Shown: one piece after another, positions 1-189 of the stretch
How the letters are laid out: each line of letters begins with the position of its first letter
Position numbering within the stretch: the stretch's first letter is position 1
Assembly: GCA_021818545.1 (NCBI GenBank)
Contig: JAKATX010000008.1
Span: 1-44,692 of the forward strand
Reading direction: 5' to 3'
DNA: 44,692 nt
Source of the DNA: Microcaldota archaeon
Lineage (GTDB): Archaea > Micrarchaeota > Micrarchaeia > Micrarchaeales > Micrarchaeaceae
Program-made: the position numbers and the translations under genes
The notes under the pieces: generated by a model
The model's database searches: none
Seen by the model: only the letters and a program-made list of their open reading frames with translations
What the model was told of the DNA's origin: nothing

Positions 1-189
1 TCCCTAGTAATCGCTTGTCATTATCGAGCGGTGAATCTGTCCCTGCTCCTTGCACACACCGCCTGCCAAGTCACCCAAGTGGGGTCCTAGTGAGGCAGTG
101 CCTTCGGGCACTTTCGAGTTAGGGTTCTGTGAGGAGGGCTAAGGCATAACAAGGTATCTGTAGGGGAACCTGCAGATAGATCACCTCGA
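1..189 (+). rRNA. rrs: 16S rRNA, 3' end (partial)
   Basis: This is the last part of the small-subunit rRNA: the top of helix 44, helix 45 and the anti-Shine-Dalgarno tail. Landmarks are CACACACCGCC at 53-63, the ATAACAAGG stretch at 146-154, the GTAGGGGAACCTGC helix-45 loop near 160-174 and the tail GATCACCTC ending at 187. The tail reads CACCTC followed by GA rather than CACCTCCT, so the strongest Shine-Dalgarno complement is GAGGTG. The decoding-site bases differ from the usual archaeal form at 64, 66, 144 and 146, in paired fashion (see findings). No tRNA-Ala, 23S or 5S gene follows, so this 16S gene is probably not part of a linked rRNA operon. The 5' end lies outside the window and the exact mature 3' end is uncertain by a few bases. 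Confidence 0.97.

Follow-up and report, generated by a model that had tools for sequence, protein, structure and literature searches.

In the ribosomal A site, A1492 and A1493 flip out of helix 44 of 16S rRNA, opposite A1408, and check the codon-anticodon helix, and models of A-site flexibility and drug binding invoke the neighboring U1406·U1495 mismatch. The opposition of these two uridines was described in 2011 as conserved in all three domains of life, including organelles, with the mitochondria of trypanosomes, which carry C1406-G1495, as the exception (PMC3101183). The same pair has been engineered into Mycobacterium smegmatis, yielding recombinants that grew and could be drug-tested: neomycin and paromomycin still acted on them, whereas resistance to gentamicin and tobramycin was high, such that 4,5-linked aminoglycosides remained effective and 4,6-linked ones were resisted (PMC3101183). 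In PMC3140962, Hobbie et al. are cited for U1406C/U1495G having almost no effect on MIC. A further drug, hygromycin B, contacts positions 1403-1405/1494-1498 (PMC5774723).

Here we describe C1406-G1495 in place of U·U in archaeal chromosomal 16S rRNA, across most of an order and also in a second phylum, whereas the Leishmania/Trypanosoma case, described as the sole exception, concerns organelle rRNA. The resemblance to the trypanosome-mitochondrion A site is convergent, and unlike in those mitochondria, changes occur here at 1404-1497 and 1405-1496 as well. The M. smegmatis recombinants also differ from our case, being bacterial ribosomes that lack the flanking 1404-1497 change. At 1409-1491, M. 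smegmatis has C-G and the 16S rRNA studied here has A-U. Other archaeal 16S rRNAs with A1405-U1496 or U1404-A1497 display the same compensatory changes of neighboring pairs but keep U1406·U1495. We found no paper on C1406-G1495 in Micrarchaeota, in a literature covering few subscription journals; while the base pair itself is known, its occurrence in cellular ribosomes, throughout most of an archaeal order and again in a second phylum, appears to be undescribed.

Helix 44 at the start of the window

The window, which is the whole 44,692-nucleotide stretch analyzed, comprises bases 1-44692 of contig C1, in a genome of 711 kb in 13 contigs that is 60% complete. Its first 189 bases (1..189, + strand) are the 3’ end of a 16S rRNA gene whose 5’ side is cut by the contig end. 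This fragment matches positions 1288-1478 of the Rfam archaeal SSU covariance model (RF01959) with 155 bits (E 8e-42; gathering cut-off 50) and contains the consensus structure, and the full-length 16S genes of same-genus genomes score about 1,390-1,400 bits with the same model. The letters read GCCTGCC at 61-67 and AAGGCATAAC at 141-150. We fixed the numbering register by the anchors CACACCG and TAACAAGG, and alignment to E. coli rrsH gave the same numbering as the covariance-model alignment.

In this numbering, the 5’ strand of the decoding-site helix (E. coli 1401-1409, G C C U G C C A A) lies at 61..69 and the 3’ strand (1491-1498, U A A G G C A U) at 140..147, both on the + strand, with the remaining helix 44 at 68..139 folding together with the two strands into one long hairpin, in agreement with the model structure. 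U1404 (64) is paired with A1497 (146), and C1406 (66) with G1495 (144), a C-G pair where the standard cellular decoding site has U1406·U1495. All other bases of the site are standard, namely G1405 (65), C1407 (67), A1408 (68), A1492 and A1493 (141 and 142), G1494 (143) and C1496 (145). Both alignments thus bear out the sequence-only reading, which had placed the four substitutions at these positions, had described them as compensating (C-G to U-A at 1404-1497 and U·U to C-G at 1406-1495) and had listed A1408, A1492, A1493, G1405-C1496 and C1407-G1494 as kept.

Further downstream, the anti-Shine-Dalgarno stretch (182..188, + strand) reads CACCTCG, which departs from the archaeal CACCTCC in its final base, as it does across the order. 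In the rest of the window (190-44692) there is no 23S gene, an RNA search having returned only the 16S end and two tRNAs. Since the 16S and 23S genes are separated by tens of kilobases or more in G001, G007 and G013, the rRNA genes are unlinked.

Distribution and origins of C1406-G1495

We scanned the genomes of 84,980 species, one genome per species, for the exact pattern with both variant strands. Besides the window, 61 contigs from other assembled genomes showed exactly its four-base state, almost all of them under Micrarchaeota titles, and the three same-genus genomes having a 16S carry the same four bases. Three public records titled ‘bacterium’ or ‘Candidatus Marsarchaeota’ (L040, L041 and L082) also carry the order’s 16S variant; these titles look wrong, and L082 coincides with a genome of the window’s family (G261).

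We then surveyed 301 genomes of the window’s phylum, reading both strands in 173 sequences (109 from the window’s order and 64 others); counts are among the matches listed, and families f22-f28 of the phylum lie outside the sequences read. Among these 173 sequences, C1406-G1495 was restricted within the phylum to the window’s order (families f1 and f2), where 94/109 sequences have C-G at 1406-1495, one has G-C (G028) and 14, all of family f2, have U·U. Judging by record names and acidic sources, this order is probably Micrarchaeales. The neighboring pairs vary as well, with U-A in 89 and C-G in 20 of the 109 at 1404-1497, G-C in 91 and A-U in 18 at 1405-1496, and A-U in 103, C-G in three and G-C in three at 1409-1491. 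Pairs toggle even inside single genera (g3, g4 and g37), and mispaired combinations at 1404-1497, 1405-1496 and 1406-1495 were absent from all 109 order sequences, which substantiates the compensation first seen in the window. All 64 sequences from the 14 other families of the class have U·U together with G1405-C1496, and U1404-A1497 occurs in only one of them (G136). A1408, C1407-G1494, A1492 and A1493 are invariant, as in a standard decoding site, in the 109 order sequences and the 64 others. The comparison of the four columns across aligned Micrarchaeota 16S rRNA, which the sequence-only reading had proposed, finds the pair to be common to most of the window’s order; that reading was also right in its description of U1406·U1495 as near-universal and in its guess of Micrarchaeota.

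To follow these changes we used a 16S tree of 133 sequences from which the helix 44 columns at issue were omitted, and in which deep branches are weak. Parsimony gave a minimum of 10-12 changes at 1404-1497, 6 at 1405-1496, 5 at 1406-1495 and 4-5 at 1409-1491. The change of the 5’ base and that of its 3’ partner fell on the same branch in every case (15/15 for 1404, 6/6 for 1405, 8/8 for 1406 and 4/4 for 1409), a coincidence matched by 0 of 20,000 random placements for each of the four pairs; this analysis is poorly rooted and serves for the coincidence, not for change counts. U·U genera are scattered among the C-G genera of family f2, but a single C-G clade within the order is not rejected by an AU test (p 0.34), and C1406-G1495 may have had one or several origins there. 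The genome with G1406-C1495 (G028) was placed outside its own family, a position that may reflect a long-branch artefact.

L081 (isolate B47_G15), one of the 61 contigs, comes from outside the order. Its 16S rRNA reaches at most about 82% identity to that of any family, has retained G917, C1060 and G1197, and terminates in CACCTCCTTT, and its genome (G301) sits in another archaeal phylum, with 19 genomes in the collection. In that phylum, C1406-G1495 is present in 2/5 genomes with a readable site, accompanied by U1404-A1497 in G301 and by A1405-U1496 in G304, and the other three have U·U. As the pair occurs both in the order and in this separate phylum, the switch to C1406-G1495 arose at least twice. 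Among the matches listed of 297 relatives of G301, a set extending far outside its phylum, U1406 is present in every genome that belongs to neither of these two groups; several of them carry A1405 or U1404, and in 13/13 of those with the 3’ strand read, the matching partner and U1495 are present.

Other changes in the ribosomal core

A census of 16S base pairs found 233 that are fixed in the other families, of which 7 were swapped for another fixed state in the order. Five of these 7 are altered on both strands, with 137-226, 341-348, 963-972 and 1060-1197 becoming another standard pair and 249-275 becoming C-A. Almost every order member has G-C instead of C-G at both the central pseudoknot pair 18-917 (in our reading of the alignment) and the h34 pair 1060-1197.

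In the 530 loop, G527A is found in 79/79 order sequences, including the U·U members readable at this position, while C522 is unchanged, so that the substitution has no obvious partner change; in the same loop, C518 is G in most of the phylum. C1400, which stacks on the wobble position of the P-site tRNA, is U in six family f1 genomes (G013, G028, G036, G044, G022 and G048; loci L230-L235). The 16S 3’ end of the order reads CACCTC followed by A or G, compared with CACCTCC in the other families of the phylum and the other archaea read, and the order may depend less on Shine-Dalgarno pairing when start sites are chosen.

Two partners of the decoding site were considered as sites of compensation, and both were rejected. 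The 23S H69 loop reads UAACUCUGA (A1916C) instead of UAACUAUGA in all 11 Micrarchaeota genomes read, and compensation through bridge B2a is dismissed since the loop is the same in the U·U and C-G genomes among them; A1927, also in H69, is G or U in several order members. In protein uS12 (loci L277-L302), the near-universal loop PNSA reads PHSG in nearly all Micrarchaeota examined, the exceptions being PNSG in G028 and PSSG in G007, and across 25 genomes no feature of the PHSG loop tracks the 1406-1495 state (the row for G001, in a wrong reading frame, was left out).

The 16S genes of some 45 genomes also contain insertions, mostly at E. coli position 1102, of about 280-840 bases and mostly near 500. 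The insertion site is common to families f1, f2, f15 and f16, and all five insertions examined contain open frames of 160-280 codons; they are probably rRNA introns with homing endonuclease genes.

Probable compensatory re-pairing and its alternatives

The likely explanation, in our judgment, is a genuine, lineage-wide compensatory re-pairing of the decoding-site helix, with function conserved and decoding ordinary, and it is not a new mechanism. In the order’s ancestor, or a few times within the order, U1406·U1495 would have become the Watson-Crick pair C1406-G1495, and the neighbors 1404-1497, 1405-1496 and 1409-1491 would have been swapped between equivalent pairs, each substitution on one strand being offset by another on the opposite strand. 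In this way the helix, and with it A1408, A1492 and A1493 as decoding bases, would keep its geometry, and the ribosome would read codons as usual. Because the order has re-paired many otherwise conserved pairs, we read the helix 44 switch as one case of what would be fast compensatory evolution of the small-subunit core in these small-genomed archaea. The altered pairs sit directly beneath the invariant decoding bases and C1407-G1494. The covariation indicates that the paired helix was kept and that the loss is limited to the U·U opposition.

We infer from these sequence patterns that decoding has stayed the same and that the driver was drift with compensation and not selection. The toggling of 1404-1497 and 1405-1496 in other archaea that keep U·U speaks for compensatory re-pairing, and, by analogy, so does the tolerance of C1406-G1495 in M. 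smegmatis and its natural presence in trypanosome mitochondria (PMC3101183). Against drift, a pair described as universal should resist change, which means that the lifting of some constraint must have come first, and the partnerless G527A near the same site would fit an altered decoding centre. The sequence-only reading had taken the covariation to argue for a functional change; the maintained pairing stands, but covariation alone is no proof of altered function, given that the pairs toggle within genera and that many other conserved pairs were re-paired too.

Selection for an order-specific decoding centre, in which the Watson-Crick pair stiffens the base of the A site and changes how decoding or initiation proceeds, perhaps in concert with G527A and the shortened anti-Shine-Dalgarno, is an alternative that we regard as unlikely, though worth keeping in view. 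Unusual decoding-centre features do cluster in the order (C1406-G1495, the 79/79 G527A, C1400U in six genomes and the CACCTC[A/G] end), and the pair arose again in a second phylum; yet fourteen order members keep U·U, those readable at 527 sharing the G527A background, the 1404 and 1405 pairs flip back and forth, and neither H69 nor uS12 follows the 1406-1495 state. We give still less credence to a coordinated change of the decoding centre, with the Watson-Crick 1406-1495 pair, G527A, C1400U in some genomes and the shortened anti-Shine-Dalgarno jointly altering codon reading or start choice, which, if true, would be the first such case in a cellular ribosome. An antibiotic origin, with the pair fixed as protection from a 4,6-linked aminoglycoside or a hygromycin-like compound, seems improbable: acid-water archaea are not known to encounter such drugs, and it leaves unexplained both the flips at 1404-1497 and 1405-1496 and the re-paired positions remote from any drug site. 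In its favor are the high-level gentamicin and tobramycin resistance of the C1406-G1495 recombinants (PMC3101183) and the hygromycin B contacts (PMC5774723), set against the small effect on 4,5-linked drugs (PMC3101183; PMC3140962). Practically no weight is left for a sequencing or assembly error at the contig end, or a pseudogene: the window’s 16S does lie at the very start of a contig in an incomplete genome, but this reading is already refuted by the 61 other contigs with the same bases, and the full-length same-genus 16S genes and the perfect compensation stand against it as well.

The changed bases bear on predicted drug sensitivity and on surveys. By analogy with the recombinants, the order is predicted to be insensitive to 4,6-linked aminoglycosides and not, from this pair, to 4,5-linked ones; the link to aminoglycosides is narrower than the sequence-only reading implied, as M. 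smegmatis with C1406-G1495 stays sensitive to 4,5-linked drugs and resists 4,6-linked ones (PMC3101183). The universal primer site at 1390-1407 is altered, as had been suggested, by two mismatches to 1391R/1406R, but these lie toward the primer’s 5’ end, well away from its 3’ terminus (positions 14 and 16). The 1492R site is worse, with mismatches 4 and 6 bases from the primer’s 3’ end plus two more, so that the group is probably overlooked more readily in surveys using 1492R than in those using 1391R, and the helix 44 changes explain part of the poor fit of 1492R to these archaea.

These results break a stated universal, as roughly a hundred archaeal genomes have C-G for U·U, and show that the U1406·U1495 mismatch is dispensable in cellular ribosomes. 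Close relatives of the same family that keep U·U provide a natural experiment on the need for the mismatch.
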